NCBI GenBank assembly: GCA_022606425.2 | Contig: JAHDVF020000580.1 | Location: forward strand, 558,001 to 622,000 | DNA length: 64,000 bases | Direction: 5' to 3' | Origin: Lepidostoma basale | Lineage: Eukaryota; Arthropoda; Insecta; Trichoptera; Lepidostomatidae | In this document: positions 29,573-63,170 of the stretch, piece after piece | Position numbering within the stretch: position 1 is the stretch's first letter | Layout: every line of letters starts with the position of its first letter | Position numbers and translations under genes: made by a program | The notes under the pieces: model-generated | What the model was told of the DNA's origin: nothing | Seen by the model: only the letters and a program-made list of their open reading frames with translations | Database searches by the model: none

Positions 29573-29753
29573 ATAATAATTAAATAAAACGATGTTTTTT
29601 CACTACTTCCACTTTTGTCTTTATTTCGACAGCGACCGGTTTCGCCAGGCTCGTTGGCATCGATCGATGCCAGCGAGCCTGGCGAAACCGGTCGCTGTCG
29701 AAATATAGACAAAACTGGAAGTAGTTAAAAAACATATTTTATTCAATTATTAT
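29573..29753. repeat. 181-bp near-perfect palindrome built from two hammerhead-like modules
   Basis: Two ~90-bp arms meet head-on at TGGCATCGA/TCGATGCCA (centre 29663/29664). Each arm runs outward through the GCCAG...CTGGC stem-loop, GAAACCGGTCGCTGTCGAAA, then AGACAAAA.TGGAAGTAGT and an ATAATAATT.AATAAAA end. Only a handful of mismatches separate the arms, so a single strand would fold into one long hairpin. A related direct repeat (ATACAGTG.TTGTT) lies on both sides at 29522 and 29752 and could be a target duplication. Confidence 0.8.
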
Positions 29754-30204
29754 ACAGTGTTTGTTTTGTGAACCCGTGTGATTTAACGAGTGGATTGAAA
29801 AAAAACGGAATAAAATATGGCAATGTACAGAAGATGCTAATGATTGCTAACGATGTGTCCATAATTACGGCTGCGCACAATATGTTCTACCAATAGCGGT
29901 GCACATTAGTAGGGTAGCGCCCGGAGGGGCGGCCAAACTGATATTTACGAGCGGGGACACACTTTATAAATTACTGAATTTTTGCGCAGAGGGGAATCAA
30001 GGGGAATTGTGCCGACTTAATGAAGAGTAATTCCTCCAGATCAGACTAGTCGAATCCCAGGGCTGGACGCTGGGCGGGAGATCCGATGCAATCTGCGACA
30101 TTTACATTTAATTTGTTTTGTGTTGTAGAAATATTTTTACTTTAAAAGAACTAGAACAATCTAATGGATCGACGATTTTGTTACGGTACAAGCAATATAT
30201 AATT
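29754..30204. other. Intron stretch with GC-enriched part
   Basis: 29895-30095 is GC-enriched compared with its surroundings and has no good coding frame. It may be regulatory. Confidence 0.4.
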
Positions 30205-30523
30205 ATTGTACACTGCCATTGTAGCTTTTTTGGATAGGTTTTTATTTACGATGGCAACTTTAAGTACACCATTCACTTTGTTGCCTGCCCCAACCCTTCT
30301 TTCAATATCCCTTTCCACTCGCCCATCTTTTGTAAACATACTACCTAAATACACGAACTCATCTGCTTGTTCCAAATTTTCACAATTCACGGTAATGTTG
30401 CAGACTGTTATGATTTCTTCCTTTTCAAAAATCATTACCTTGGACAATGGTGTTCTTCTACCGACCCTTATGTGTGGAAGCGAAGCATTGAACTGGCAAA
30501 AGAAGGATAAAAGTAGAATAAAT
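30205..30523. mobile_element. GTTA-tail LINE copy with internal inversion
   Basis: 30205-30445 lies on the minus strand and encodes SKVMIFEKEE through FVYLGSMFTKDGRVERDIER to NKNLSKKATMAVYN. 30446-30523 lies on the + strand and encodes NGVLLPTLMCGSEALNW. In intact copies these segments are consecutive, so the 5' part has been flipped with the breakpoint at a single codon junction. It is truncated at both ends. Confidence 0.75.
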
Positions 30524-30956
30524 AATGTTAAATATGTTTTGATTTAAGCATTGATTACTTCAGAAACTTTATAAGGTGAAATGTCGAGGAAATAAATATT
30601 TATTCCTTTTCTTCCTGTCCCTCTCGGTTCATCCAAAGTCTGACCTCCTTGTGCGTAAGCGTTAAGATCTTCTGTCTCGGGTATTCATCTTTTTCTGTAC
30701 ACGGAGACTTTTGTTTGTCAAATGTTAAAGGAAAGAGGAAATAAATATTTATTGTTACTCGAAATAAAGATTAAGCGTAATATTTACACCCTTTTGACCA
30801 AGAAGGAATAATTATTAAGTGTTCATTTTATTTGGTTACTAATTTACGTATTGTTTTATGTATAGGTAAATGAAAATTTCATTGTAAGATGGTAAATTTG
30901 TATAAGAATATATCGAATTTATCTCTGCATACACCGACATTTTAATTAATTTAATA
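30524..30956. other. AT-rich spacer between two LINE copies
   Basis: No gene was recognised. A short segment at 30600-30720 is GC-balanced and without a coding frame. Confidence 0.45.
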
Positions 30957-30966
30957 AACTATAACT

Positions 30967-31289
30967 AACAAAATAATGAAAGGATCATCAAGATAGTTTG
31001 GACATATGGAAAGATAAAAATGAAAAAATAATGGTAAAAAAATTATATGTTAACGTTGTAAATGTAACCAGAAATAGAGGAAGACCGAGGAAGACGTGGC
31101 ACGATTAAATAAATCAAATATTGAATGTCTGCCATGTGAGGAGTCGGAGAAATCGACCGCGCGTGCATGACACGATGCATGAATGTTGAGGAAGCGAGAG
31201 AATTATGTCAGGAAAGAAAAGTGTGGCAGTCCATTCTTTCTGCCTACCCCTTCGGGGAGACGGCGTGATGGTTAGTTAGTTAGTTAGTT
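30967..31289 (+). mobile_element. GTTA-tail LINE, 5'-truncated insertion with exact target-site duplication
   Basis: Runs from AACAAAATAATGAAAGGATC (the NKIMKGS codons) to CCCCTTCGGGG and five GTTA units. AACTATAACT stands at 30957-30966 and at 31290-31299, immediately outside both ends, so this is an independent insertion and not the continuation of 30205-30523. The frame is broken by several indels. Confidence 0.85.
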
Positions 31290-31299
31290 AACTATAACT

Positions 31300-31889
31300 T
31301 TTTTAGTATTCAAATCCACTGTTTAATTCTGAATTTTAGTTATCGAACTTTGCAGTAATTTGTTTTGTAAATTAAAGCCAAAAGGAGTTTCCGTCCACCC
31401 CTGTCCAAAAGACGAAGTGACAGTTTAAACGATAATGGTCTTTGATGATATGCCTCCTCCGGGGAGATTTGTCGTAATTGTTTTGGATGAATTTAGTATG
31501 TACATCCTATTCGCAGCAGTTATGTTCCTTACTACAGAAGTCGGCCGTTATGGTTATGAAGCGGTAATTGCACGGAGCCTGTTTTGTGAAATGTCTTCCA
31601 GAAATTGGGAGTGAAGCGCTTCCGAGAATTCAAAATACTTGTAGAAGGAGGCTAGGTATGATATTCATTAGTCGGTAATGTCGAGTGTAATGTCGCGTGT
31701 GATAAATGAAGCAATATTAATTTAAAAACACAAGCCACGCGAAATCGTTTTGAAGGATAAGTTCTATTAAAATTGCTATCCACAAGAAAAAACACCAATT
31801 TATTTATTTATGAAAATGTTTTGGTATAGACAGATATATCGCATAATTTAAAACAATAAATATAACAATAATGGTGAAAAATGGTAGCC
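31300..31889. other. Intron stretch, nothing recognised
   Basis: GC-balanced at 31380-31480 and 31540-31640, otherwise AT-rich. No repeat or coding match. Confidence 0.45.
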
Positions 31890-32030
31890 AGTAGTTGAGT
31901 TCGTGTATTTAGGTAGTATGTTCACAAGAGATGGGCGAGTGGAGAGGGATATTGAAAGAAGGGTTGGGGCAGGCAACAAAGTGAATGGTGCACTTAAAGT
32001 TGTCATCTTAAACAAAAACCTATTAAAGAA
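31890..32030 (+). mobile_element. GTTA-tail LINE, internal fragment
   Basis: Encodes EFVYLGSMFTRDGRVERDIE, RRVGAGNKVNGALKVVI and NKNL in one + frame, without interruption, then diverges at about 32030. It has neither palm nor 3' end. Confidence 0.7.
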
Positions 32031-33344
32031 GCTATTGGATTGCTGTTAAGGATGAGGTAAATAGATTAATTTGCGTTGTGTGCTTATAACGTTAATTAAA
32101 AAAAAAACTTGAAGTTATTTTTTGGAATAAGTATGTAATTTTTGTTTTTTTAGATATTCTATTAAACAGGTATCATGAAATGAGTTTTAAGCAAAGCGTC
32201 TTGTATCAACAAAACTTTTGCAAGCTTTTATTTTGTAAACAGCCCCCGCAGGTCGACAAGTCACAAAATTTGCGTAAGTCGAATTACGGAAGTTACTAAT
32301 ACAGGGTAGGCACTTGAGGTGGACCAATTGCAAATCTTTTCTTGTTTTACAACGGTTCGCTTTAGATACCATTAAAAAAGCTTGATTATTATAAGTTAGC
32401 AAAAGTAGTCTCGATACTTGAGTATAAAAGAGTTGGTATTTGAAAAAGTTTCTGATCACTTGATGAATGTTTCGCCCGAAAAAATACTGTATTTCTATTC
32501 TAAAATTAACAAACTTTTAATCGATTTTAAAACTTCCACACTAGCCCGAGTGAAGGCTGCGTTTGGTATCGGGGGTATTTTCTGCATCAGAAGAGTGAGA
32601 AGTGAAACACGAACTAGTTATATAGCTAATAGAAACGTCAGGAGGCAAAGTTGTACGATAATTGCTTTCGCCCATTAGACATCCTCAGCGGTCAGTTGGC
32701 CGGGAAGTAAAATACGAGTGTGGAGTGTGGATGGGGTAGAGCGGAGGGTGGAAGCGACCCCTTACGTCAACAATCTTGACGCGTCAACACACTTATGTTG
32801 AAAATTATTTTCGGTGTCGTCGACCGCTTTCGTGCAACAATATTTAACTTCTAGATTATAACACGACGGAGAGAATAAACTTTAATATTTAACATACTTA
32901 AACAAATCACCAATTTGCATATTATATTTGGATGAACGATTTTTTGTGATAAGTTGATTGTCTAAGAATTTTTGAAATTGACAATAATTTGATAATCTTA
33001 AGATTATAACAATAAAAAATAACAATGTGGAGAGATAAAAAGTTGACTTCTTATTTATATGTGGTATTTTGGAATTGGTGAAGTCAATTATAAATTTTAA
33101 TCAAATTTATTAAAGAAACTCAAATAAAAAATGAACATTACTACATAAACTATAAATGTACTTTTGTTTTGTTTTAAATTATATAGTACATAGTATTGTG
33201 TCCCCATATAATAACGATGGAATATTATTCACTTTGTTCACATGTTGTTATTTTCTTTATATAATGGGTGTCATAGAAATTTGCTTAATTTCTTTAAATA
33301 TTAACAGTTCCTTCCTCCTTCATTGTTTTAACCTAAAATATTTT
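32031..33344. other. Intron stretch with a GC-enriched centre
   Basis: 32540-32780 is GC-enriched with no persuasive frame. The remainder is AT-rich and repeat-free as far as can be seen. Confidence 0.45.
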
Positions 33345-33455
33345 AAAAAACTTCTTCTTACTAGTCGTTTATCGTCCACTGCTGAATGTATAGGCCTCTC
33401 CCAAAGCACACCACCGCCCCCTATCCATCGCCACTTTTGTCTATCCTAATATTAA
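33345..33455 (-). mobile_element. Short 3' scrap of a lepidopteran LINE
   Basis: The + strand contains CGTCCACTGCTGAATGTATA then GGCCTCTCCCAAAGCAC, the wording of a very common antisense LINE end in Lepidoptera (CCACTGCTG.A.ATAGGCCTC). Only ~90 bp remain. Confidence 0.5.
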
Positions 33456-33606
33456 CATTAGTTTTGTTTTGGTACTACGTGCAATTTTAATTTGCGCAAG
33501 TTACATCCTTTGGTTTTTGTAAAATGTTATATTTTAGGTGAATTTATATGGTCTTCCCAATGAATGTGTTAAACTTTCGAAACATGTCAAGAAAAATAAT
33601 CTCTAA

Positions 33607-33912
33607 ATAACCATCACGCCATTTCCCCGGAGGGATAGGCAGAGAAGATGGATCGCCACAATGCTCATCCTGGCATACCTCTCGGGATTCCTCAACATTC
33701 ATACATCGTAACATGCACGCACGTCGATTATTCCGACTTCGAATGTGACCGCCTTTTAGTATTTAATTGATTAATTTGGTCTTGCCATGTTTTTATCGGT
33801 CGTCCTCGGCTTCTTCTTCCACTCACGCTGCCTGTGTACAACTTTTTAACCATTATACTCTCATCCATTCGTTTCATATATCCAAACCATCTCAGGGATC
33901 CTTTTAAACTAA
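33607..33912 (-). mobile_element. GTTA-tail LINE, 3' copy without tail repeats
   Basis: The minus strand runs from RWFGYMKRMDE-like codons to the ATCCCTCCGGGG hairpin and the final GGCGTGATGGTTA. The tetranucleotide repeat is absent. It resembles the divergent subfamily at 20676-21185 and 55720-56233 (shared GRPKTWQDQIN.LLK wording). Confidence 0.65.
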
Positions 33913-34741
33913 TTAGTGGAGGATCAAAAATAAACTTTTCCGTGAATTATTATAATTAATTAAGAAACAGTGATTCAATTCACGTAAATTCGATTTTAGA
34001 CGCTTTACTTTACCAGAATACAATTGGTTATGTTACGTTTCACCGTGCAAAGAGAAAGCGAATTTGCAGCAAAAGTGTATTTCTTGCTTTAATAACAAGC
34101 TAGCTCTCTATGAAAAGATTTCTTTACCTCTCCCATCACACTTGTCATCCTGGCATCCATTGTGGCCGGAATAGAGAAAATCTTACGCCATAATAACTTT
34201 CCGCGTCTCGCAAGGCTCAAAAGAAATGTGTCCACCATTTTGACATGCCACTCCATACTGTGTACTAAGTGGCAGGGCGTAAATAAAATGAACGAAGGGC
34301 GTTGACAAAGAATGAAACTTACATTATTTGTGTAATAATATACGATAAGTATATAAGGAAAATAATATGGGTTATGTACGGCCACATAAAGGAATCGGCT
34401 TCTTGTACATACATTATTTACTTACTAGATAATGTAATGGATACGAAAGTACTCACAAGGTTGACGTGGATTTCATTATCGATAGTGGAGGAAAAATGTT
34501 ATTTATCGTATTTTACCTTCGAAAATTTACCCTAAGTAATTTTATATGTATTGTAAAATACACGTATTTATCTTCATATACGACACGTATATTATATGTA
34601 TTTAATATATTTTTTAGAAGAATTCAAACAGGAAATATACACCCTTTACTAACATTTAATAATGAATAAATAATAGATCGACCTATTATCATACTAATAG
34701 TTATATGAAAGTATGTATGTTATTTCATATGTAGTTTTATT
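33913..34741. other. Intron stretch, nothing recognised
   Basis: 34090-34290 is GC-balanced. No repeat family or coding frame was recognised. Confidence 0.45.
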
Positions 34742-34885
34742 TAGAAATCGACGAGTGTGCATGTAACGATGTATGAATGTAGAGGAAACTTAAGAGGTAT
34801 GCTAGGACTGAGCAGTATGGCGGTCCATAATTTCTGCATAGTCCTCTGAGAAACGGTACGATGGTAATTTAGTTAACTAGTTTTA
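34742..34885 (+). mobile_element. GTTA-tail LINE, short 3' fragment
   Basis: Starts at AGAAATCGACGAGTGTGCAT and ends in a decayed hairpin (GTCCTCTGAG) and GGTAATTTAGTTAACTAG. Confidence 0.6.
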
Positions 34886-34962
34886 AATAAACACAAGTAC
34901 AATTTACTGCATTATTATATAACTTTATACATGGAATTTCACAATTGAATTATTTCTTTTAA

Positions 34963-35017
34963 AATTGTCGGGACAGCTGTTTCGATTACCAATGTTAGCA
35001 TTATTAGGTGTGACAAT
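34963..35017 (-). ncRNA. Hammerhead-like module, degenerate copy
   Basis: The minus strand reads ATTGTC, then CTAATAA in the core position, a stem-loop with several mismatches, GAAACAGCTGTC, and GACAAT. The outer helix (ATTGTC at 35012-35017 with GACAAT at 34964-34969) is perfect, but the core and stem II have decayed. It belongs with 62441-62490 and 63109-63170. Probably a relic of a Penelope-like element. Confidence 0.35.
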
Positions 35018-35311
35018 CAACTGACAAACAACCAACATTATTTGAAACTCTAATTTATTATCAACAATTTCGAATTGTTTTAATTCTGATTAATTCGCCA
35101 GAAAAATTCGAAAGCATTTAATATTTAAATATTTTTAGTAGCTCCAATTTATTATAGTATCGTATCGTAAAAGCCAAGATTTAATCTGGTTGCCGATAAT
35201 TATAGAGAAACCTCTGTCCGAAAAATACATGCAGTGAAATGAAATCGCATTTCATCCCAAATATTTTAACATTCGTTCCGTATTAGAAAATCCCACATTA
35301 ATTTTAGTAAA

Positions 35312-35482: not shown

Positions 35483-37430
35483 GTAACTAAAACGTCTACA
35501 AACTTTAATTTTAGTGTTGCAATTAAATCGTTTACGAATTAAAAATTATGTTTGCTGTTATAAATTATAGCAGTAAGCAAACGAAACCGGCCAGAATTAA
35601 AAGTACAATCAATGATGTAATTATAATCAATGCAAATTTTTGAAGAAATTTCAATAATCAACATTAAAAAAAACAAGAAAAATAGTATCCTTTTTCATAT
35701 TGAAGTATTAACGCGACTATCGTTCTTAACGTAATATATATAACCACTATATTTTGGTTTGAATTTCGTTAATGTATTATATTAATAAAGTCTTGTTTGT
35801 TGTGTGAATCTATACATTGGTCCAAAAATAGCCCAAATTGATTCAAACAACTTATTCGATTCGATTCGAATGCTAAGAAAATTTCTTTGAATTTCTTTAC
35901 CCTCGCAACGCGGATATTTGTGGTCTGATTTCCTAAATAAGTAGCATCAATCTCTTTGTTGTACTGTGGGCAAAGGAACCAAAAGGTTGACTCAAAATGA
36001 ATAAACATAGAAGAAAGGACGGGAACATTTGTCGGGTCAATCACGGGATCAATAATATGACGTTCGCTGCTACAGACTCGCCGCCATTATACGGTCGTAA
36101 TGTGTTTGGATAATAAGTGCCTGAAAGCACGATTGATTGGGGGGTGGCTTTCAATCGGAGTCCTTCTAAGGGATGAAAGGAGGAAGATAAGGAGGAAACA
36201 GTGCCAGGACACGAACTTTGGATGGTGGTGGTGAACGATTGATTTGTTTTAAATCAAATTTGAAGGATGCGTTCGGAATATTTCCAATATAAAAGCCGAC
36301 CGTTCAATGAAGGAGTTGTTATTCTTTGATCGTTAACTGGGACAAGATGAGTGGAATTCATAAATTTGATCTTTAAAACTTGATGTAAGATTAGGAAATT
36401 TTGATTTTCAAACGATATTAAGGTTCAAAAGTTTTTGGTTCGTGGTAAACTTATATCAGCTATAATTTATCAAATAAACAATTTATTTCTGTGACGATTC
36501 TAGAACATTAATAATATTAATTAATTAATGGTATTTTTTTGTCCAATAAGTAATGGTGATAAAAGCTCCATAAATTTTATTTGTTTATTGTAATAATTAT
36601 ACTCAGGTTCGGAAAACAAACGTTCCCACCACAGGTTATAAATTTATACTTGTTCGTTAACTAGTAAAAAAATATAGTAAATTATACAAAAATTAAAAAA
36701 AAATAGGAAATTTCTCACAAATCAACGAACTAAATTCACATTAAATCACTTATATAGAAAATTGATGAAGCGGTATTAATTATCTTTCGTAAAGTTGATG
36801 TGTTTCACTCTGCTAGGATATTACTAAAATATGCATTGATTTTGAATATAAAATAATTGTTTGATTATATACAATGATGCCGTTTGTACAATGAATAGGT
36901 TGTCGTAGAGTGAAACTGTTAATATTCTTTAGGTATTTAAAACGCTCGACGTAATACTGAAAGATTATTTTTCCCCTTGTGCTATAACTGTCAATACTTC
37001 TTTAAATACACGCTTTTACATTCAAGAGAAAGATTGATCTAAACGCATACAATTAAGCGTGATGCATCTTCGTTTCTATCGTTACCAAGCGGCAGAAATT
37101 TCGTTCTGTACCAGGAGACGTGTGTATTGCGGATTGTTGGAAATTAGGGGCCACATTTAGTTGTCACTTTCCGCCGACATGTTGTGGGGCACCCTTCTCC
37201 GGCGAAAGCAGCCCCGCGGACCTCAGTAATGGATGGTCACCGAGCTGAATGATCGATCATGTCTAGGTCTAGTGTTGACCTCAGTCCATGCCCAAGTGTT
37301 ATATGTGTGTACAGCGTACCTACGTCATATTTCGTAAATGCGTGTTCGAGCGAGTGATATAATATATTTTATTATGCTAATGGGGCTCTGTTATTATAAT
37401 ATTTGTGATTCAATTGATTGATAATTGATA
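35483..37430. other. Intron stretch with two GC-enriched parts
   Basis: 36050-36250 and 37080-37300 are GC-enriched, without a believable coding frame. A 91-codon minus-strand frame (36044-35769) resembles nothing known. No interspersed repeat was recognised. Confidence 0.45.
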
Positions 37431-38032
37431 ATGATAATTGCGGTGCGATTATCATTCGCACCGCATTGTCTTCTTATATTTTCATTCGACACTCTATCAT
37501 ACACAGAGTATCCACACATTCGTCTAAGAGATCTCATTTCTACTGCATTTATTCTACTTTCATCCTTCTTCTGCCAGTTCCATGCTTCGCTTCCATACAT
37601 AAGGGTCGGTAGAAGAACACCATTGTGCACTGCCATTCTAGCTTTTTTGGATAGGTTTTTGTTTGCGATGACAACTTTAAGTGCACCATTCACTTTGTTG
37701 CCTGCCCCAAACCTTCTTTCAATATCCCTCTCCACTCGCCTATCTCTTGTAAACATACTACCTAAATACACGAACTCAACTACTTGCTCCAAATTTTCAC
37801 CATTCACGCTAATGTTGCAGGCTGTCATGGTTTCTTCCTTTTCAAAAATCATTACCTTGGACTTATTAACATTCATCATTAGATCATTTCGCATGCATAC
37901 CTCATACATACAATTCACCAGGACTTGTAATTCACGTTCGTTGTCTGCAAGAAGGACAGCGTCATCCGCATACAAGAGACAGCTTACTGAGACCCCGCTC
38001 ATTTTGGCACCTACATCCAACTCTTTTGCTAA
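37431..38032 (-). mobile_element. GTTA-tail LINE, best-preserved reverse transcriptase fragment
   Basis: An uninterrupted minus-strand frame (about 38017 to 37465) encodes the reverse transcriptase from just before the catalytic YADD (VSVSCLLYADDAVLLADN), through YEVCMRNDLMMNVNKSK and FVYLGSMFTRDRRVERDIER, to the thumb LLPTLMYGSEAWNWQKK and RINAVEMRSLRRMCGYSVYD. These enzymes copy the element RNA at a nicked target. The endonuclease, the front of the polymerase and the whole 3' end are missing. The 3' break (low coordinate) is a snapback: GCGGTGCGA is followed 7 bases away by its own reverse complement. This copy best defines the family. Confidence 0.85.
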
Positions 38033-38093
38033 ATAATAAAAATAAAAATAAAAAAAATATTAATTTATTTCACAGATTTAGTATAATTCTAAT

Positions 38094-38182
38094 TAATTTA
38101 GTAAGATTCTACCGATTTCGGCAACTTGCTGCCATCTTCTGGGAGAGAGCTGCTAAAAATCAAGTTGAATGGAACTAAATTA
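38094..38182 (-). ncRNA. Hairpin with a hammerhead-like core
   Basis: The minus strand reads CAGAAGAT, GGCA...TGCC, GAAATCGGTAG, enclosed by 9-bp ends TAATTTAGT and ACTAAATTA that are exact reverse complements. The layout matches the other modules in the window, with a different stem II (GGCA/TGCC). CAGAAGA keeps most hammerhead core positions but not U4. Likely the end of a Penelope-like element or an unrelated hairpin; catalytic activity is doubtful. Confidence 0.35.
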
Positions 38183-41050: not shown

Positions 41051-41054
41051 TGGA

Positions 41055-41432: not shown

Positions 41433-42136
41433 TCATATTTTCGGGTTTACCGTTTTGGTATTTTTAAATTATTTTCGCAATAAAGCTAAGGCAAAAACAC
41501 ATTGAATGTAATATGTAGTCCAATTCGAATAGAGGGGAAAATTCAAAATATTCATAAACTGAAACGGGTTTTTCTATTTCTTTTGATAATACAGACATGA
41601 AATTTTCCATACTTTGCCAGTATTATGAAAGTGTTTGGGCAAAATTTTACTTTTGAATCGCTCTTATTGGGCTTGTGTAGCAATATCTATGAATAGCAAT
41701 GTGTTTATATAATACAAAGCGTAAACACATGCAATAGTCATACCATTATACTATATATGTAGATATGCGGTAATTTTCAAGCGTTTTTGGCATAATAAAG
41801 ATGATATACATTCAAACAAAAAATGAAAGTCATGGTCAATTTCTATTCTGTTGTATTTTTTTAATAATACGCTTTAGTTAATATTTAATATTGATAAAAA
41901 TACAAATTTTTTGTTTTACTAAGATAAATGCTTTACTAAATCATTTGATAATGGTTTAGTAAAGCTAGACATGTCATTCCTATAAAATATATAAGAATTT
42001 CCGGGAAACAGCCTTAATATATAATAGAATAAACATTAGCTTTCAAGAAACAAGAAAAGCTTTATTTATCGAATAAAAATCAAGATGTGGCAAAATAACT
42101 GCATCAATAATATAATGTTTGTATAATAATATAATA
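41433..42136. other. AT-rich intron with a perfect hairpin
   Basis: GCTTTACTAAA (41930-41940) and TTTAGTAAAGC (41955-41965) form an 11-bp perfect stem around a 14-base loop. CATGTCATTCCTATAAA just after it resembles CATGTCATTCCCATAAA at 63330, so part of this stretch may belong to the Penelope-like relics. Confidence 0.45.
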
Positions 42137-42265
42137 TAATAATAAATAAAACGATGTTTTTTTAACTACTTCCACTTTTGTCTTTATTTAGACAGCGACC
42201 GATTTCACCAGGCTCGCTGGCATCGACAGACTGGTCACCAGTTCGAGTTCGACAAGATTTCAGTA
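42137..42265 (-). mobile_element. Single arm of the hammerhead-like foldback family
   Basis: The minus strand reads GATTTTACTGAAATCTTGTC, then GACCAGTCTGTCGATGCCAG, the stem-loop, GTGAAATCGGTCGCTGTC and AAGACAAAAGTGGAAGTAG to an AT-rich end. AAATCATTTGATAATG occurs at 41938-41953 and at 42266-42281. The second copy of the arm seen in other members is missing here. Minus-strand codons beyond 42266 include VNIVLPITVVPYICG, which may be a decayed polymerase tail, but this is weak. Confidence 0.6.
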
Positions 42266-44159: not shown

Positions 44160-44668
44160 CAACTCTGACTCCTCACATGGCCGGCATTCAATATTTGATT
44201 TATTTGATCGTGAAACGTTTTCCTCGGTCTTCCTCTATTTCTGGTTCCATTTACATCGTTAACATATAATTTTCATTCATTCTTTCCATATGTCTAAAAA
44301 ACCTTAATGATCCTTTCATTATTTTGTTCATAACACCATCAATCGCACCGCATTCACTTCTTATATTTTCATTCGACACTCTATCATACTCAGAGTATCC
44401 ACACATTCGTCTAAGAGATCTCATTTTTACTGCATTTATTCTACTTTCATCCTTCTTTTGCCAGTTCCATGCTTCGCTTCCATACATAAGGGTCGGTCGA
44501 AGAACACCATTGTGCACTGCCATTCTAACTTTTTTGGATAGGTTTTTGTTTGCGATGATAACTTTAAGTGCACCATTCACTTTGTTGCCTGATCCAACCC
44601 ATCTTTCAATATCCCTCTCCACTCGCCCATCTCTTGTAAACATACTACCTAAATACACGAACTGAAGA
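44160..44668 (-). mobile_element. GTTA-tail LINE, large open fragment
   Basis: A minus-strand frame stays open for some 140 codons: FVYLGSMFTRDGRVERDIER, NKVNGALKVIIANKNLSKK, VLRPTLMYGSEAWNWQKKDE, INAVKMRSLRRMCGYSEYDR and VMNKIMKGSLRFF. It continues as RGRPRKTF in another frame to about 44165, where it stops short of the RRACMTR codons and the tail. Confidence 0.8.
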
Positions 44669-46899
44669 AGTAAAGACATATTGTTTCTAAATGAATTGAA
44701 AATATATTCAATAAATGTTCAAAAATGAAGTTCCGTTTTGTAAGTAGTATTGTGCATGGAATATTCACCTAATTACTCGCTAGGGGTCTTGAAAACACGG
44801 TGCATGCCGCCTTCCGTGACATGTTAAGCTTCATTAGCGACTTCAAGTATAGTGGGGCATGTAAAGCCGAAATCAGTGATCATTCTTACATCATTAGTTC
44901 TTGCCATTATTTTACTAAATCATGCACGAACACAATGTAATACGCCCCTTCCCAATCAGATAAGATAAATAGATCCCATAAACGGTAACTAATTATAGGG
45001 AAACATTTCTTGGCGATAGTAAACAAACGTCTGAATTCAACGATTATCGTTTGTGTTCTCTGGATATCATTCATAAGCGTATTTTGAATCAAGAATAAAA
45101 CATCATAAATATTTGGAATCGGATGAAAAGAATATATTTTTATGTGTTTTCGGTTATTTGATTCTCAAAACAACTAATAGAGGGTGCTATGTAATTCCGA
45201 AGTGTTTTTGAGATTACTTTATTAAAGAATTGTGAGATATACAAATAAACAGATAATATATTTAAGATTGTTGACGTTTTTAATTTTGTTTTTATTAAAA
45301 TTCTATATTTACAGGTGTAGTGTCCCACAATAAATTTAAACTGTTAAAATCGCTGAACATTTTATTGATTGAAATTGAATGTACCGAGAATATTCTGTAT
45401 ATTTTCCAACCACGGATATTTATTGTAAATATTTTATTTTGATTTATTTATATTTATGTAAGTTTTTTGATACAATTATCGTTTAATTTACTGTCAAGTA
45501 TTAATTACTACGTATATCACGAAACGCGACGACTATACAATCGTATCGTTTTAAATATTATTTGAATTTTCGAGATAGAGATATATCAAATCATCGGTAA
45601 ATTATCCTAGGAATTGGTATTTAAATGATTTATTTCTAAATCTAGTGCGGTGTACAATAGTCTTTTGAGTATTTTATCCAAAATCATTTTAGAAAGAAAC
45701 ATAAAAGGTATGTGAAAATACAAAATAATATTTTATGTATATTCCTATTATTTTATAACATAGTCGTTTATGTCATCAGTTGATAGTTACTTTATACTGT
45801 AATACTTTAAACTAGTTTTTATTCAATCACTCAAATTCTTTCTCCTCCTCGTTTAAATTTTTGTAGCATAACGTATCTGTTTAAAAATTGTGCTTCTTGA
45901 AAAGAATTCAATTTTTTATCTGAAATCGGTGTTTCAACAAGCCACAGAATTTAACTTAATAAAAGTAAAATTTTATCGGTTGTTCCCTTGAGCATGGTTT
46001 GGGGGATTTTCGGTCATTGCGCTTTATCTCCCCTACGATCGTTTCTCTCCTGGAAACATATATGGGAATTGTCGGTACGATCCTTCCCGAATACCTTGTC
46101 ACACTTATCGTGAAGTCTCCGTAATTATTAGCGCCTACGAAGAAGATATATCCAAGAAAATCCGGCTTACAGCAAACTATGGTTGTTTTATAGGCGGTAT
46201 CGGCTTACTCGGTGCAGAAGGGAGACTTTATAGTGTGGCGGAGTCTTGTCGGGCCGAGCATCACATCCGGGCATGACAAGAAAACAAATTGTACGCAAAA
46301 GAAATTGAACGAGAGCGTGAAACACATCGATTGATGGAAGCATTGGCAGTCTAGCATTGTGCTAAACCCTCTCTCTTTCTCTCTCTCTCTCGTCAACAGG
46401 AAGCATGTTTGTAACCAATACCAAACGTATTGTTTATTGTTTCGTATCGAATACAAATATAATATCTATTTTATTTATATCCTTGGTAACAATAATAACA
46501 CGAGAAAGCTTCGCCGCGTTCTTGCGGGAGAAAATATTTTCTTTTTGTAGCCTAGGGGTAGTATCGTGATGAAAATTTTAATACATCATTATAGACGTAT
46601 GTCAAAATGAATGTGTCGAAATCAATTGATTTCGACGGGCAAATTTATTTGGCTGTAAACAAGATATCTCTTACACGATAAAGAGAAAAGAGCAGAGTTC
46701 ATTTCCAGATAGAAAAAGGTAAAGAATATTAACCCTTAATTGGGCGCTAGGAAACTGATCACGTTAAATTATATTGTTTTCAATTGAGAGATACAATTTT
46801 TTTTACCAAATAATACGTTAATGTGCTTCTTCTGAATTATTAGTCTTTTCATTCGATTGACACATATCATCATTATGTTTATATAATATTTTGTAAGCT
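44669..46899. other. AT-rich intron, nothing recognised apart from a microsatellite
   Basis: A (CT)n run lies at 46368-46391. The part at 46000-46260 is GC-balanced. No coding frame or interspersed repeat was recognised. Confidence 0.45.
46368..46391. repeat. (CT)n microsatellite
   Basis: CTCTCTCTTTCTCTCTCTCT, a dinucleotide run with one interruption. Confidence 0.9.
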
Positions 46900-48290: not shown

Positions 48291-49305
48291 CAATCAATCA
48301 ATCAAACAAAAACGCACAATCAATATTTATTTTTCTCGTTTAAAAAATATTTGTGGTACTTAACTATTAATAATGAATATTATAATTACAATATTTGAAG
48401 ATAAATGTGCAGTCAAGTAGCATAATTTATATTTAGAAAAAATAATAAAAAAACTTTTGTAATAAATTTCGTATTCTCTCTGAGCTTTGTCTTCGGCAGC
48501 TTCTAAATAAAGTGATATTCTCAGAATCCACTTTTCTGATTTCTAGCCTCCCATGTTGATGAGAGAACTTTTTGACGAGAAGTAACCCTCTCTATTAAGG
48601 GCATGATTTAATCAAATTCTTATTGTACTTTTTTATTGAATTGCTTTCGCTTGTGGTAACTTTGTTGCGTGATTCATCATAAGTGCCCTCCAGTTGTTTT
48701 CGATTTTCCGGGTAGAAAAAAGGGCCGTAACATGGTGTAGAATGGAAAAACAGCCATAGTAAACATGAACGTGTATAATAAACATATAAAATACGCATTC
48801 CACTTCTGCGTAAATACTAATGTAAAACATAAAAAAATACATTACGTTTGGATACAAAAAAAACCATTTATGGTTAATGAACTATTTTATGCGAATTAAA
48901 TTAAATGGAAAGGTTTTTCGTGGCATCAATAAGGAATACCTACAAAAACTATCACTTGTTACTTATTTAAAAGAGTTCTAAATTTACATATCTGAATAAA
49001 GAAAATGATGCATCTGAAAACGTTAGCTTAATGAGTTTACACAAAAATAATTAGTTAAAATTAACTTTCTGAAAAATTAATAAATTTTATGTATAGAATC
49101 AGTACCCCAGAAATATCTATATACGAATATTTAAAAAATTAGGCAGTATATGAACATGCATTGTTTTAAAGGTAGTAAAAATATGAATAAATATAGTGTT
49201 TTCATTTTATATACAGTAATTCAATTTTGATCTTGTTAGAAGGGTTAACTACTATAAATTAGATAACCAAACGATTTTACTGAAATCTTTTTATGGAAGT
49301 TCATT
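48291..49305. other. AT-rich intron, nothing recognised
   Basis: No coding or repeat match until the foldback element. ATTTTACTGAAATCTT at 49274-49289 is shared with the flank of the related elements at 29.6 and 42.2 kb. Confidence 0.45.
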
Positions 49306-49575
49306 GTAAATAATAATGAAATAAAACGATGTTTTTTAACTACTTCCACTTTTGTATTTATTTCGACAGCGACTGGTTTCGCCAGGTTCGCTGGCATTGA
49401 CAGACTAGTGACAATGTTATAAACAATCTCCTTTATATACATGCAGATCAGGGATGGTAAACAGAGTTCTATACCGTCTGTCGATGCCAGCGAGCCTGGC
49501 GAAACCGGTTGCTGTCGAAATAAAGACAAAAGTGGATGTAGTTAAAAAACATCGTTTTATTTAATTATTATTTAC
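49306..49575. repeat. 270-bp foldback element with two hammerhead-like arms
   Basis: The arms 49306-49404 and 49476-49575 are reverse complements (GTAAATAATAAT.AAATAAAA, then CGATGTTTTTTAACTACTTC and CTTTTGT.TTTATTTCGACA). They face inward and are separated by about 70 unrelated bases. Each arm carries CTGTC.ATGCCAG, the stem-loop, GAAACC and GTCG. With 29573-29753 this defines a family whose arms are stable while the spacer varies from 0 to 70 bases. Confidence 0.8.
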
Positions 49576-49797
49576 TATAAATAAATAAAACGTGTTATAT
49601 CATTGGGGTTTTATTAAAAACTATTAACAATATAGATGCATTGTAATCAAAGTTAACGAAATATGCTTGCTTTAGGAAACTCTAGTCTCAATACCAAAAG
49701 ACTTTAATCGATCACTCTACCAAGAATATTTGTTTCATTATATAAAATAAGAATTTTTACGAAAATTTAATGTAATTTTTTCTTTCAAGAGTTTTTT

Positions 49798-55189: not shown

Positions 55190-55198
55190 TAGGTATAC

Positions 55199-55511
55199 TT
55201 AAGGATCGTAGATCATACATATGGAAAGAATGAATAAAGAAATAATGGTAAAAAAATTATGTGTTAACGATGTAAATGGAACCAGAAATAGAGGAAGACC
55301 GAAGAAAACGTGGCACGATCAAATAAATAAAATCAGAATGTCGGCCATGCGAGGAGTCAGAGAAATCGACGCGCGTGCATGACACGATGTATGAATGTTG
55401 AGGAATCGAGAGAAATATGTCAGGAATGAAAAGTGTGGCAGTCCATTCTTTCTGCCTATCCCTTCATCCCTTCGGGAAACGGCGTGATGGTTAGTTAGTT
55501 AGTTAGTTAGT
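55199..55511 (+). mobile_element. GTTA-tail LINE, 3' copy with target-site duplication
   Basis: Runs from a scrambled SLRWFGHM region through MVKKLCVNDVNGTRNRGRP and the HDQIN, RACMTRCMNVE codons to the tail. The hairpin region has a small duplication (CCCTTCATCCCTTCGGG). It ends in five or six GTTA units. TAGGTATAC flanks at 55190-55198 and 55512-55520. Confidence 0.8.
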
Positions 55512-55719
55512 TAGGTATACATGCAAATATTTTGTATTTATGAGGTCAATGTTGTAGATAAGCCTTCTAAAAGGAAAAATACTTAAACAGTTTCAATACT
55601 ACTATTTGAATAAAAAATGGCAAAAGTTTTATTCTACATATTTTACGTATGCATACAACGCTCTAATTAAATTTTGGAAAACGTGATACTTGTATTTACC
55701 ACATCAAGCATTTACTTTA

Positions 55720-56233
55720 ACTAACTAACTAACTAACCATCACGTCGTTTCCCAGGAGGGGTAGGCAGAGAGGATGGATCGCCTCATTGTTTTATCCTGA
55801 TATAACTCTCGCGCCTCTTCTACATTCACATATCGTGACAAACACGCTCGTCGATTGTTCCTACTTCGAACATAGCCGTCTTTCAGTAATTGATTAATTT
55901 GGTCATGCCATGTATTCCTTGGCTTTCCTCGACTTTTTTTCCATTCACACTACTTGTATATATATTTTTAACCATTCTTCTCTCATCCATTCGTTCCATT
56001 TATGTCCAAACCATCTTAGTGACCCTTTCTTGATTTTATTTATCACCCATTCATCCGCTTTACATTCCTTTTTTACTTCATCATTTGATATTCTATCATA
56101 CATTGTTTTTTCCCAAATCCTTCTACCTCATTTCATTCATGTGACCTCATTTCTACGGCATTTATCCTAATTTCATCCTTCTTCTGTCAACTCCAAGTTT
56201 ATTTTATTTTTTTTACTTTGTGTCTATAAATTT
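55720..56233 (-). mobile_element. GTTA-tail LINE, 514-bp copy with 15-bp target-site duplication
   Basis: CAAGCATTTACTTTA stands at 55705-55719 and 56234-56248, directly outside the (TAAC)n end and the truncated 5' end. The minus strand carries RLRWFGHK-like, QDQINQLLKDGYVRSRNNRR and EEAREL-type codons of the divergent subfamily. The hairpin reads CCCCTCCTGGG. Frames are broken throughout. Confidence 0.85.
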
Positions 56234-57330: not shown

Positions 57331-57350
57331 TGTATTGTCGATACTAAAAC

Positions 57351-57372
57351 ATATTATTATTATTATTATTAT
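57351..57372. repeat. (ATT)n microsatellite
   Basis: About seven ATT units following the LINE fragment. Confidence 0.85.
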
Positions 57373-57435
57373 ATCGTTGAATCGCTCCTAACATCTTAAC
57401 AGCGCGAGCCAAATCGATCTAAAGGGTAGAAGTAT

Positions 57436-57610
57436 CATTTTAATTCTCATGACATTTGATAGGTAGCTAATCTATCTCTATTTTATTGCCACGCGAATTT
57501 TTCACAAGTCCAATGATAGTGTGACAATCATACTGCCATCGCCGGGAATCGAACCTGGAACCTTCGGTGTGGCAGTCAAAGCACTTATCACTCGGCCACT
57601 AAGGTCATTG
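57436..57610 (-). mobile_element. tRNA-derived SINE, best-preserved copy
   Basis: The minus strand starts ATGACCTTAGTGGCCGAGTG (A box TGGCCGAGTG), then GTTCCAGGTTCGATTCCC (B box GGTTCGATTCCC), and a tRNA-unrelated body with AATAAAATAGAGATAGATTA and TATCAAATGTCATGAGAATT. The A box resembles Ser/Leu-type tRNAs. Internal promoter boxes drive polymerase III transcription in this class; copying relies on a LINE enzyme. Confidence 0.8.
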
Positions 57611-57635
57611 TATCTAAGTTACTTCACGTGAAAAT

Positions 57636-57688
57636 AAAATGGCGATAGATTAGGTACCTATCACATGTCATAAGAATCAATAGTTAAA
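57636..57688 (+). mobile_element. Opposite-strand 3' piece of the same SINE
   Basis: AATAAAATGGCGATAGATTA, then TATCACATGTCATAAGAATC repeats the 3' body of the SINE at 57436-57610, but on the other strand, only about 30 bases away. Confidence 0.65.
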
Positions 57689-57741
57689 AAGTTTAATACA
57701 GTAATTAGGTTCAAATAACTTATACATAATAAACATGATAT

Positions 57742-58012
57742 AAAACTAACTAACTTACCATCACGCCGTCTATTCGAAGGGGTAGGCAGAATAAATGGAT
57801 CGCTACACTGGTCTTTCTTAACATATTACTCTCATTTCCTCAACATACATACATCGTTTCTTGCACGCATTTGATTTCTCCGACTCCTTACTTGACCGAC
57901 ATTTAATATTCATTAGATTTTCCGCACATTCGTCTAAGAGATCTCATTTCTACTGCATTTATTCTACATTCATCCTTCTTTTGGAAGTTTCATGCTTCAT
58001 TTCCATACATAA
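57742..58012 (-). mobile_element. GTTA-tail LINE with internal deletion
   Basis: The tail end AACTAACTTACCATCACGCC, decayed hairpin and RACK...MYVEE codons are followed near 57920 by an abrupt jump to the INAVEMRSLRRMCG codons and the SEAWNFQKKDE wording. About 190 bp between these blocks is absent. Confidence 0.65.
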
Positions 58013-61000
58013 GAAATATAATATATTGACGAATATTTAAAAAAAAAAAAATTCAACGGTATTCCTTTATTTCGTATTCCATTCACGTTGCTCACGTATA
58101 CATTGGAGATTTATTTGTTTAATATTTATAATATGAACAACTGCGAACAGTCAAATGTGTCTTGTAAAACAGATGTACTCACTTCAATATTCTCCACTGA
58201 AAAGCAATTTTATATTCTGATGACAGAAACTTGTTAAAAATGAATTATTTTTCACATTTTTATGTCGTGTACTTAGTATGAACATAGGGTCTTATCTGCA
58301 CTCACTATATTGGTGTTAAATAACAAATGGGAAAATGAAACGGAAAGCTTAAAATGTTATATACATACATATTTATAATTTTGAAATAAACGTAGTTCAT
58401 GCAGAAATTAGATAATAAGTAATGGTATTAATGTAAAAAGAGGGAGAGAAGAATAGATCAATCTGTTTCCTTCTGTTTCTAAATTGATTAAATTGATCTG
58501 GTTCAAGGAGACCCTTTTTGGATTAAATTTTACGCCAAAGGTAAAATATTTCTTCAAATAAAAGTCTGTATTGGAGATTTCTTATTCGAATAGCGAATAG
58601 CTGGTGAAATAAAAATACGAACGACTGAACAAAGTAAAACAAAGCAGTTTTGGATACAAAAAGAAGCACCCAGGCCTGACTTCAGCATTGTGTCATTATT
58701 AAAACAATCGAATTGATAATAGAACGTTATCTAGCGAAATATTTATTAAAGATTTTATCTATCAATTGATTGTTGTTGTAATAATTTATCAAATATGATC
58801 AGATTGATAATTGAAATATAATTTATTGGTATATGTATAGATTTGATAATTCTTCTACTACGTTTGTCATTCTCATTAGAAAGATGATTTTTTTTTAAAA
58901 CAGGTTTTTGCGCTTACTTTATAATTAAATACAATAATTAAAAAAATAATAATCAAACTCAAGTTTATTCCAAACAAACTCAAAAACAAACTGAATTGAT
59001 AAAAAAAATTGTTAAAAAAAAATACTTCGAGGCCACTTATTCTCAACTGTGTACTTGAAGGAAATGAACACTAAAAACAACCTCGTCCCAAATGCTTTGC
59101 GGTGCCGAGTAATATATTTAACATGAAATATAAAAACATAAAGTTGCGTGAAATCTCATACAAGTATAAGGAAGAGTTCTGGCGCCTTGCATCATCCCTT
59201 CTCCCGTCTCTGGGGAAGCGGCTTACACGAAAACAATTTCGTCCGCCTAACTCGGCGTGAGATATTTGCGGGAGATATTGTGTCGATGGTACCGAACTGT
59301 TTTCACGTTGTTTACGAATATCTTACATCGACTTGAGCTCGTGCCCACACTTTTCCTGTTATCCTTTTTAAGTCTCGCCTTTGTACGAAATATACGAATA
59401 TTAAAACGCTGTTTGCATGCCACCGCGTGGATTTAGAGGATATCGTACCTATTACAAAGGAATTATTCTTTGGCAAAGATGTATATCGAAATTGAAACAT
59501 TTGGTAAATACTCTGTATCAAAACGGTGTACATTTTACAAACTCAGTGGAAAATATAGCACTTTAGCTCATAAATATAGGTACATAATTATAGGATTCAG
59601 CTGTGTTGGATTTTATAGACGTTTAAAAATAAAAAGCAACAATTTTGCTTAGAAATGACACATGCTACCAGCCTTGCTCTCCTCAAACAATCATAGTCAT
59701 CGCTCTCTATCCACCTACAGTCCTTGATATCAATGATATATTCATCCCGCTGTATTCCATCCAGCTATCGACGTTAAGGTCTACCAACGTTATGTTTGGG
59801 AAATTGTGTGAAGAACCATTGTTGGCATTTTTTCTTCACTCATTCATTCAACATGCTCCGCCTATAGTAGTCTCCCTAATTTAATAACTTGTACGATGTT
59901 GGATTCGTGGAAGGTATTGTAGATCACCTTGTCGTAGCGTATTCGATCTGCAAACTCCATTTTCTTGCATGGGTTCTTATAATTTTAAATTGAGTATTTT
60001 CCTCTCAAGTACTAGGAGAGATTTTTTCTAATTCTTTTTATTCACTACCCAGCAGTAAATGGCCTTTTTTACTGTCGTTCCTGAGTATGTTTAATTTTAA
60101 CGCTTTTCAAATTAGATAGATAAAATGTTAAAAATCATATAACGAACGAAATAAAGAAATCTTTGCGTATTATTCAGTGGTGAAATTTGAAATAAATATT
60201 ATTTTAGAAGCGAAAATAGCAAAGAAACAAGGGACATGAGAATTTTTCTATTGGAAAACCAAACATTAATTAGAAAGCTGTAGATATCCAGCTCATTGGT
60301 TATTTCATTAATAAAATGTTGGAATTTTGATAGAAATTTTTGTTCTTTTTTCGATTTATAGGACGATTAATAATGTTATTGTTTTGTAAAAATCCGATAA
60401 CTTAGGCTATTACAAAAATAGTCGATGAAATATTTAGTATTGTAGTGAAATTACAGAATACCCAAAGTGAAAATATTAGTACTTTGCGAAAATATTTTCC
60501 TAAGAGAAACAGTGTATTTGGAATTAACCATATGTATGTATTAAGAAATAAATAACTTACATTTAACTGGAACTCGTGTATTTTAAGATATGTCTTCCAT
60601 TTTGTTATATTCATATGTCTTTTTAGATTATAAAATGATTTTGGTAAATTTCTTCAAATTATTAATGACTTTAGTTGCTAGTAGATGCAAAGCACCATTT
60701 TGTATAATTACATAATGGCTTAAAATAGAAATGCCACTTAAAGCCGTCTAACGTAAAATTGCACACTGCAGTTGCTATGACGAAATCATGGTTTCCGAGA
60801 ATTAAAACAACAAGGTCATTTAATAGTTTTTGATATTTCATAAGATGATTTTTTTATATGTGGCATTGCAATTTTCTAAATATTTATCGAAATTTATGGT
60901 GAAATTTGTGGTGCTGAAATTGATCGATGACTATCGGGTATTTTCGATTAGAAGTTATCACGACACTTGTATAATCTATGAATAGAGGCAGCGATATCGA

Positions 61001-61246
61001 ATTGACGCGAAAATGTTGAAGAACTGCCTTTAACTTTGGTCTTGTCTCTCACACTTTAAAGTGCTGTTAGATATTCTCTTAGAAATGTGTTCATTGTATG
61101 AACTTGACTGCCTGACGGCGGCGGCTAAGAGATATTTTAATACGATTTCTATAATTAGTAAAAGGTGTTCTTCACATAAATAAATATAGTTCTTTAAGGT
61201 GACATGCTTATTTTTGCTTTTCACATTTGGAATGTTATAGTAAGAA
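58013..61246. other. AT-rich intron, nothing recognised
   Basis: Homopolymer A/T runs and short open frames. GC-balanced at 59160-59330 and 59660-59880 with frames that resemble no known protein. No interspersed repeat was recognised. Confidence 0.45.
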
Positions 61247-61452
61247 ACTAACTACCAATCACGCTGTCTCACCAAAAGAATAGGCAGAAAGAATGATGCG
61301 TTATACAGTTCTTTCCAGATATACTTCTCTCGATTTCTTTACATTCATACATCGTGTCAGGCACACACGTCGATTTCTCCAATCCATCAATTTGAAATAT
61401 TGATGGATGTGGTCGTGTCACGTTTTTCTCAGTCTTCCTCTATTTATTCGTA
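61247..61452 (-). mobile_element. GTTA-tail LINE, short 3' copy
   Basis: AACTAACTACCAATCACGCT at the low end, a hairpin decayed to CTCACCAAAAGAATAGG, then RRVCLTRCMNVKEIE-like codons, ending at KNRGRLRKT-like codons near 61450. Confidence 0.6.
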
Positions 61453-62440
61453 ATAAACCGCTTCCCTGATCTGATACTTTGGAAGAAACTTGATACTTCA
61501 TTTACCATCAGAGTTAAATCGTTTTCGGAAAAAGCACGTTGCATTATTTTTTTATACAGCTTAATTTGTAAAGCATTATGCTCGAATAAGGTTTTAAATA
61601 AATTAAATGTTTATTTTAAAAACATTTTATAAGTATGGTTTTAAAAACATTTTTTTCGATTGGTAGTAGAAAATTAAATTTATTTTTGATAATACAGTAC
61701 AAACCTTCAAATTAACAAAGGAATTCCACAGTGTTAAGGCCTTAACATTAAAAAAAACCCATATATTTTATACTTTTGTTCACTAAAAATAACCAATAAT
61801 TTCAAGTTATAGTTACTTTCCGTGGATAATTTGAATTAAAGTAATATTTTGTTTATACTTTATTCATAACGATACATTAATAAATAGGCTAATAAAAAAC
61901 ACGAAAAACTTTTTTTGAGTTATAGAGATAATCCCTGCTCTAAATAGACGATAAAATATAATATATAGCAAATATCACAAAACAATATTTATTTTTATTA
62001 AAAAAGTATTTTTTTGTGTTAATGTAGAAAAATATCAGATTTAGACATGAGTTTCGAGCCCACAGCTATAAAGATAAGTTGGTACATCGGTTAGTAGGTA
62101 ATATAACAACTCCGCTCACGGCGTTTCCGTCGTTGTATCGGCTTTAGTACGAAAGGAAAATTGAAGAGTTAATCCCCAGAGTTACAGAATAGACGACTCC
62201 ACGATTCTTTTGTTATTCCTAAAGTTTGTTCGGCTTATTCACAACGGAACAACTGCATTCGTCTTTCGAGATATTAATTTTCCCCAGGCTCTGGCACAGC
62301 CATTCTCTAGCTTTAATCAGATAGAGTGTTAATGCTCTTCCATAGAAATTATATAACATTTCAGCAAAATCCTTAAACTTATATTATATTATAAACTGTT
62401 AAAATATAAAACGCTGTTTATGGTATCACTATTTTTTATT
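61453..62440. other. AT-rich intron, nothing recognised
   Basis: GC-balanced at 62040-62320. No coding frame or repeat match that can be supported. Confidence 0.45.
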
Positions 62441-62490
62441 TTTGCGACAACTGTTTCGTCAACCTATGTTGACATCATCAAATTGACATT
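62441..62490 (-). ncRNA. Hammerhead-like module
   Basis: The minus strand reads TTGATGA (62475-62481 in reverse), one extra T, GTCAAC, loop ATAG, GTTGAC, GAAAC, AGTT, GTC. The order core - stem II - GAAA - short stem III - GUC is that of type I hammerhead ribozymes of Penelope-like elements. TTGATGA has U for C3. Stem II (GTCAAC/GTTGAC) is perfect and differs from 63109-63170 by a compensated pair. Stem I is poor. Confidence 0.4.
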
Positions 62491-62540
62491 GGAACAAATG
62501 CACATAAAGAACGAAAATGAATTATACCAACAACAAGAAT

Positions 62541-62935
62541 AAACCATCACGCCGTTTTTCCTCAAACCTCTCTAGCTTCCTCCACATTCATACAACGAGT
62601 CTAACACGCACGTCGATCCTTTCGACATCTAACATGGTAAGGTTGGTAAACCATTAAATTTCTTTTGGTTATGCCATGTTTTCCTCGGTCTACCTCGACT
62701 ACGTATTCCATTTACTTCATAAACGTATACTTTCTTAACCATTTTTTCTCCATCCATGCGCTCCATATGTCCGAACCAACGCAGCGATCCTTTCACAATT
62801 TTGTTCATAATACCTTCTTTCGCTCGACATTCTTTTCCTATATCAGCATTTGAGATATATTTTCAGCAGTTGTGGTATATCTCTGCCGCATTTATTCTGA
62901 TCTCATCCTTCTTCTGCCAGTTCCATATGTTAGAA
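62541..62935 (-). mobile_element. GTTA-tail LINE, divergent 3' copy
   Basis: The minus strand codes for KLWNWQKKDEIRINA, a partial VMNKIVKGSLRWFGHMERMD, KKVYVYEVNGIRSRGRPRKTW, and RRACQTRCMNVEEARE, with the hairpin deleted so that AGGTTTGAGGAAAAACGG remains. Tail repeats are absent. Closer to the GTT-tail subfamily. Confidence 0.7.
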
Positions 62936-63108
62936 GATTGTTGCGGTTACCTTATCTTATCTCCATAACTCTTATGGAATCTCTTGGTGATTAATTCGTT
63001 TGTCAATAAATTTTATAAATGTTTTTTCGAAATATTAGTTAAACTAAAAATATCAAATATTCGATTAAGAAAAACAATTATTATAAATATTACAATTTAT
63101 TCTGATGA

Positions 63109-63170
63109 CTTTGTCGCGACAGCTGTTTCGCCAACCAATGTTGGCATCATTAGGTGTTACAAACAAATGG
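63109..63170 (-). ncRNA. Hammerhead-like module, clearest copy
   Basis: The minus strand has a TTTGT/ACAAA outer helix, CTAATGA core-like heptamer (63147-63153 in reverse), one extra T, stem II GCCAAC/GTTGGC around ATTG, GAAAC, AGCT and GTC, the expected cleavage triplet. CTAATGA differs from canonical CUGAUGA at one position (G5). The extra T before stem II is also non-canonical. Members at 62441-62490 and 34963-35017 show the same build. Confidence 0.45.

Follow-up and report, generated by a model that had tools for sequence, protein, structure and literature searches.

We find that a 64,000-nt stretch of the Lepidostoma basale genome (assembly GCA_022606425.2, contig JAHDVF020000580.1, positions 558,001-622,000 of the forward strand; hereafter, the window) carries a set of short modules that are very probably the remnants of minimal type I hammerhead ribozymes, placed in the 3' untranslated region (UTR), or pseudo-long terminal repeat (pseudo-LTR), of Penelope-like elements (PLEs) and shortened derivatives of these elements. 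The evidence, all of it at the level of sequence, comprises the ribozyme core, the stems, the palindromic layout, a position behind reverse transcriptase (RT)/GIY-YIG frames in two families (A and C) and membership in repeat families. A first-pass annotation of the window had interpreted the modules as hammerheads of Penelope-type elements, and the comparisons reported here support that interpretation. Each module that it named is present, with a heptamer, an extra T, a hairpin and GAAA in this order; the extra T precedes stem II, and the two arms of stem II change in concert, as had been described. The modules are not independent of one another: those near 11.73, 29.66, 42.21 and 49.4/49.5 kb are members of one repeat family (family A), those near 34.99, 62.46 and 63.13 kb of a second (family B), and the module near 38.13 kb stands single. 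Relatives in the same genome were sought in the window's own assembly (768.8 Mb, 1,572 contigs); L numbers denote fetched loci, P numbers listed proteins, and positions are otherwise those of the window.

The proposed link to Penelope is borne out for family A by a PLE of the same genome whose 3' UTR holds a hammerhead-type module. Two near-identical loci, L189 and L190, contain a 758-codon open frame with matches to RVT_1 (1.4e-13) and GIY-YIG (6.6e-5), and RT with a C-terminal GIY-YIG is what identifies a PLE. This frame has 1,343 protein relatives among 7,995 scored candidates, the organism-named ones among the 120 listed being insects, and next to relatives such as P0008 it is short of about 57 residues at the start (judged by eye). 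Outward-facing family A modules flank the frame on both sides, the upstream flank being the reverse complement of the 3' UTR. A TATA-like TATATAAAGG starts 36 nt before the L189 module and AATAAA lies 8 nt after the putative cut site (L189:4200-4800), which places a promoter-like box, a ribozyme module and a polyadenylation-like signal within about 100 nt. A survey of GIY-YIG sequences in the assembly (541 candidates, 150 scored, 62 matched, 30 fetched, with some overlap among fetched loci) reveals a module 375-828 nt downstream and on the same strand in 21 of the 30 fetched loci (17 of family A, three of family C and one of family B), some of the 21 being the two ends of one place; L177, with its module 1,429 nt downstream, is excluded from this count. 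L159 and L161, two of the nine loci outside the 21, are bacterial and by our reading UvrC-like. Bacterial gene runs with frames that we also read as UvrC-like occur in L194 (G000:C102:20000-25500) and L195 (G000:C729:133000-138500), whose contigs are a symbiont or contaminant within the insect assembly. The search for full-length PLEs yields an RT/GIY-YIG element with family A modules and no clear partner of this kind for family B. No PLE coding sequence is found in the window itself, where tblastn with the L189 frame gives a best E of 0.57 and the listed relatives P0001-P0120 give no match at E 0.1.

The window copies are truncated, fused or point-mutated insertions and are probably without function today. 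Those of family A share 86-97% identity with the L189 3' UTR. The remnant at 11721..11758 (+ strand) retains GAAACCGGTCGCTGTC behind a heptamer shortened to CTGTC-, has a damaged stem II, matches the L189 3' UTR at 86% over 11683-11814 and sits within a long palindrome (about 11554-11885). At 29573..29753, two PLE 3' ends (93-97% identical to the L189 UTR) are joined head to head in a palindrome whose arms, 29624..29666 (- strand) and 29661..29703 (+ strand), fuse within the heptamer, which is destroyed in both (CGATCGA). A single arm of a PLE 3' end is found at 42136..42238 (- strand; 95% over 104 aligned positions to the L189 UTR), with its module at 42187-42229 (- strand; CTGTCGA, GAAAT). 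An internally deleted PLE at 49289..49590 consists of two inverted 3' ends flanking a short stretch of PLE UTR and carries modules at 49361..49403 (- strand; CTGTCAA) and at 49478..49520 (+ strand; 96% over 104 aligned positions to the L189 UTR), the latter with CTGTCGA, the commonest family A heptamer. Palindromes with symmetrical ends occur at three of these four family A places. A further degenerate module, new relative to the first-pass annotation, lies at 33557..33588 (+ strand; ..CTTTCGAAACATGTC / GAAACATGTC) and is homologous to L189:5909-5970. The heptamers listed earlier (CTAATGA, TTGATGA, CTAATAA, CAGAAGA and CTGTCGA) are all found, the list being incomplete in that CTGTCAA, CGATCGA and CTGTC- were omitted; GAAA is mostly GAAAC, as stated, with GAAAT at 42.21 and 38.13 kb as exceptions, and it holds that CUGANGA is matched exactly by no window copy.

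A search of the assembly with a 35-place family A pattern that leaves the heptamer free gives 2,389 + 2,495 = 4,884 exact matches. Among 100 listed, CTGTCGA accounts for 80 and CTGTTGA for six, and A does not occur at position 6 in any of them (heptamers tallied by eye here and for family B). CUGUCGA, one conserved position away from CUGANGA (A6U), is family-wide in A. We tentatively propose, with confidence just short of even, that family A represents a PLE lineage grown to thousands of copies with U at the conserved A6, its stems and palindrome kept, such that either this core is active, perhaps aided by the protein that the element encodes, or hammerhead cleavage had no part in thousands of insertions. 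L193, a PLE copy 99.5% identical in its coding part, carries a 21-nt deletion through the hammerhead (region L193:2480-3050). The palindromes themselves might be taken to mark a DNA transposon or miniature inverted-repeat transposable element (MITE), mobilized by a transposase through its terminal inverted repeats and carrying a hairpin that does no more than resemble a hammerhead. The three palindromic places in the window fit this idea, as do 40 scored same-genome places that also match on both strands, the query in that case being palindromic itself. The same arms, however, enclose an RT and GIY-YIG frame, the copy at 42.2 kb has a single arm, and no transposase turned up, with no search aimed at one having been made; a MITE origin is highly improbable, and for family A it is largely refuted by the PLE loci.

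The relatives of family B retain an intact core. The pattern CTGATGATG-N8-24-CGAAAC-N2-6-GTCG has 3,928 + 3,883 = 7,811 exact matches in the assembly, its reversed control has 0 + 0, and the relatives of all three window modules of the family keep CUGAUGA..GAAAC..GUC; with the heptamer left free, there are 2,281 matches, with CTGANGA in 73 of 100 listed. Relatives with a core unrelated to CUGANGA, which the first-pass annotation had named as the outcome that would speak against it, were not what we found: the box is exact in relatives of families B and C, and CUGUCGA in those of family A. A covariance model (R1) that draws on 16 family B copies from the genome, and on no letters of the window, recovers all three window members of the family. 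The best preserved, at 63110..63159 (- strand; 75.8 bits, E 1.1e-21), has CTAATGA (G5A) as its sole core change and stems II and III like the rest of the family; that at 62438..62486 (- strand; 54.3 bits, E 9e-15) has TTGATGA (C3U), stem II and a self-complementary stem III that can still pair, and a segment (62478-62509) that matches the region upstream of other family B copies; that at 34965..35013 (- strand; 45.8 bits, E 4.9e-12) has a CTAATAA core and a partly broken stem II. Delimited more narrowly, the first two of these modules span 63110-63153 and 62438-62481. The next match is the family A module at 49478..49520 (13.5 bits, E 0.11), and the module at 38100..38141 (- strand; CAGAAGA-T-GGCAG/TTGCC-GAAATCGGTA) scores 8.7 bits (E 3.9).

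Stem II is well maintained in family B, with 168 of 180 positions paired in 30 fetched copies, all on the first two contigs of the assembly, versus 161.5 when the 3' arms are re-dealt (P 5e-5); one of the six pairs counted, the outermost, is set by the search pattern. In the 16-sequence alignment, seven cells are changed on both sides (0 of 500 shuffles). The right end of the repeat, ..GTGTTTCGGCCAAAACAATGGAC, starts 95-145 nt (285 nt in one copy) past the heptamer start and is followed by AT-rich flank. A terminus search of 30 family B rows from 29 places (L147 = L148) locates the right end in 13, the left end in 11 (10 places) and both in two, and establishes no target-site duplication among them.

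Canonical modules of three further families are found in the fetched loci. Family C (CTGAAGA-T-GGAGG/CCTCC-GAAACATGTC) lies behind GIY-YIG in L172, L174 and L176; family D (CTGATGA-A-GGGC/GTCC-GAAACATGTT) and family E (CTGAGGA-A-GCTCG/TGAGC-GAAACCGGTC) were not linked to a PLE. Exactly one extra nucleotide follows A9 in 36 of 39 distinct CTGANGA modules (26 T, nine A, one C), in a scan that permitted 0 to 2 nt. The possibility, suggested by the PAc element, that the extra T belongs to the start codon of a PLE open reading frame (ORF) finds no support here, because nine of the 39 relatives have A and one has C at this place and the proteins of ten relatives start elsewhere. An extra nucleotide in the natural hammerhead core is reportedly the subject of work by De la Pena and Flores from 2001. 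Of these 39 modules, 27 parse as AC..GTH, the other 12 being left out of the counts for stems I and III. Stem III is self-complementary in all 27 and is followed by A, C or U, and stem I, which was not a selection criterion, is paired at 61 of 108 positions versus 47.4 re-dealt (P 5e-5). This unselected count is weaker than that for 11 hand-chosen modules and points in the same direction: the hand-chosen set, in which B2 is L131, a well-paired copy, and D2_L141 was kept although it is paired at only one of four positions, gives 34 of 44 versus 20.3 (P 5e-5), and its eight subfamilies 26 of 32 versus 14.0 (P 7e-4). Stem I is well paired in families A, C, D and E. Two-strand folding yields a double hammerhead as the minimum-energy dimer in family D only; the family C monomer shows stems I and II, its dimer taking another structure, and the minimum-energy folds of A, B1 and E contain no hammerhead as monomer or dimer. 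A MAFFT alignment spanning the families put stem II in the wrong place and was discarded.

The core of an intact transcript would consist of CUGANGA, a short stem II and GAA, and a self-complementary stretch (ACCGGU, ACAUGU or ACAGCUGU, with duplex energies of -8.3, -4.6 and -11.1 kcal/mol, respectively) would serve as stem III. Because this stretch is self-complementary, two copies could pair, each being cut 3' of the next nucleotide (usually ..GUC). In hammerhead chemistry, the 2'-OH of H17 attacks its 3' phosphate. The predicted cut site lies past the coding frame and, judged by eye, some 80-130 nt short of the element's 3' end, and cleavage there would separate a 3' tail from the upstream RNA; AATAAA starts 6-12 nt past this site in A, E and one B copy, and a second B copy and C lack it there. 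It is from these features that we infer cleavage, dimer formation and a role for the modules. Close pairs of modules (less than 1 kb apart in fetched loci, four duplicate views excluded and a few overlaps left) are arranged head to head in 25 of 31 cases, with 10 outward, two tandem and one inward in family A and 15 outward, one tandem and two inward in family B (n=18). Since most pairs are head to head, one transcript would hold a module and its antisense and not a tandem dimer. Long inverted repeats have been inferred for the Penelope transcripts of D. virilis (PMC3136932).

Several observations weigh against reading the modules as PLE hammerheads. Every window copy deviates from the canonical core. 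No Rfam hammerhead family is detected in the window, at the gathering score or at E 10, nor at 20 loci of same-genome relatives (17 with an exact CTGANGA core), where a scan at E 10 returns 50 matches and no hammerhead. In family B, covariation is modest, with three doubly changed pairs (33 of 500 shuffles) and seven further pair types (149 of 500), and stem I is weak, with 50% of cells paired. No PLE coding sequence was found as a partner of family B, L196 having none; the sole same-strand GIY-YIG neighbour, at 828 nt, is that of L163, where the head-to-head B pair may be a separate insertion. For the 38.13 kb module, the pattern is the sole support. Finally, the A6U change is common to the best-preserved family A PLE copies, so that the family A hammerhead, to judge by its core, may never have been active.

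The Rfam result carries little of this weight. As Rfam is equally blind to relatives with intact cores, its silence in the window refutes nothing about the minimal type and is not to be taken as absence of such hammerheads, and we dropped it as an arbiter for this reason. The missing covariance-model hit that was to count against the modules thus occurred with Rfam, where it is uninformative, and not with R1. The top Rfam matches in the window, STnc400 and MAT2A_A, come from the 29.6 kb palindrome, which fits models of long hairpins unrelated to it, and among eight loci on viral contigs that share the extra U, RF00008 matches three, all below the gathering score. That AT-rich DNA with GAAA motifs and hairpins would produce the modules by chance is scarcely credible. 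A descriptor of the module was made up of a CTGANGA heptamer with set mismatches, 0-1 nt, a fully paired hairpin of 4 bp or more, and GAAA. Allowed no more than one heptamer mismatch, it finds six places in the window versus a mean of 0.78 and a maximum of three in 60 dinucleotide shuffles; five of the six are modules of the first-pass annotation, and the sixth, 13575-13616, looks like chance. With two or three mismatches allowed, the window counts fall inside the shuffle range (11 and 42 versus means of 7.3 and 32.6 and maxima of 16 and 46), and there is no excess; the weaker modules therefore rest on homology and not on the descriptor count. GAAAC-N2-8-GTC alone occurs 19 times in the window versus 9.3, a count matched by one of 100 shuffles. 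Together with the 7,811 exact canonical relatives and their empty control, this means that chance is refuted for both repeat families, with the 38.13 kb module alone still exposed to it.

For family B only, a non-autonomous, retrozyme-like element that spread through small circular RNAs, and not the 3' end of an unseen PLE, is an unlikely but serious alternative. It would accommodate thousands of short copies with no coding partner found, and type I hammerhead retrozymes have been described in invertebrates including insects (PMC7229834). Described retrozymes, however, are short tandem repeats of 150-450 bp, whereas close B pairs are mostly head to head, only one tandem pair (157 nt apart) is seen among the exact matches listed, and stem III has the minimal form typical of PLEs. 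Family B presumably belongs to a PLE, as family A does.

The window also contains, on both strands, many pieces of the C-terminal region of a non-LTR retrotransposon (SLRWFGHMERM..GRPRKTWHDQ), which we take to be of RTE-like type; examples are 4303-4544, 22044-22878, 24023-24614, 30184-31291, 37394-38059 (with a YADD motif), 44163-44749, 55217-56200, 61230-61447 and 62560-62930. The longest exon-like frame in the window, 9574-10344 (+ strand), encodes a conserved insect protein whose best named match is an Arctopsyche grandis protein (55% over 90%), with two others closer at 76%; the match points to a caddisfly, or a species close to one, as the probable host. Viral contigs among the fetched loci (L005, L019, L026, L030, L053 and others) share one module design, with CTGATGATG, an 8-9 bp stem II and a short loop-capped stem III, and some carry two such modules; an Rfam scan of L005, L019 and L030 did not name them. 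The viral contig L118 has three twister matches (4770-4831, 5749-5800 and 6203-6264, one below the gathering score) near a hammerhead-type module.

The association of hammerheads with PLEs is already known, and the window copies are remnants of this known kind; minimal type I hammerheads of PLEs are said to have been treated by Cervera and De la Pena in 2014 and by Lunse et al. in 2017. The present finding gains its interest from the way in which families with a canonical core contrast with the A6U family. Several hammerhead families in one genome, two of them tied to PLEs (C canonical, A with a core change), offer a natural experiment in which families can be compared for cleavage, for the ends of their transcripts and for copy structure, and the A6U family could show whether hammerhead cutting is needed at all. 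We found no published statement of an A6U hammerhead family, in literature searches that did not name that change.

Among known systems, modules on viral contigs (L005, L019, L030, L118 and others) likewise have a 1-nt insertion after A9 and a well-paired stem II, the search pattern having required the insertion, so that they show only its occurrence; unlike the modules here, many have a short stem III that is loop-closed inside the molecule. Metazoan non-LTR retrozymes share with the modules type I hammerheads and a large number of short AT-rich copies but are tandem repeats, a layout that is rare here (PMC7229834). The modules also resemble the PLE hammerheads, which reviews describe as minimal type I ribozymes with core boxes, an absent or weak, short helix III and a pseudo-LTR/UTR site in an RT element, which may self-cleave as dimers (PMC7761336; PMC6155905), their role being given there as not known (PMC7761336). 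The families described here differ in the A6U change of family A, with CUGUCGA in 80 of 100 listed and A6 in none, in close pairs that are mostly head to head where the review describes tandem copies, and in the decay of the window copies. In PAc, a Poseidon element of Anolis, C3 and G8 precede an ATG that opens stem II (PMC11167929), so that UG follows A9; in our reading this fits the extra T. The cut in PAc falls 26 bp after this ATG (PMC11167929), and the corresponding distance in families A, B and C is 25-30 nt (by eye). The ATG of PAc opens an ORF, whereas in A and B the same frame stops within about 11-26 codons (by eye) and ten insect PLE relatives do not begin with a translated stem II. 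The PAc hammerhead is reported to cut only when its protein is present, and insertion in vitro proceeds without it (PMC11167929); thousands of family A insertions without cleavage, if true, would be the in vivo counterpart of that dispensability.

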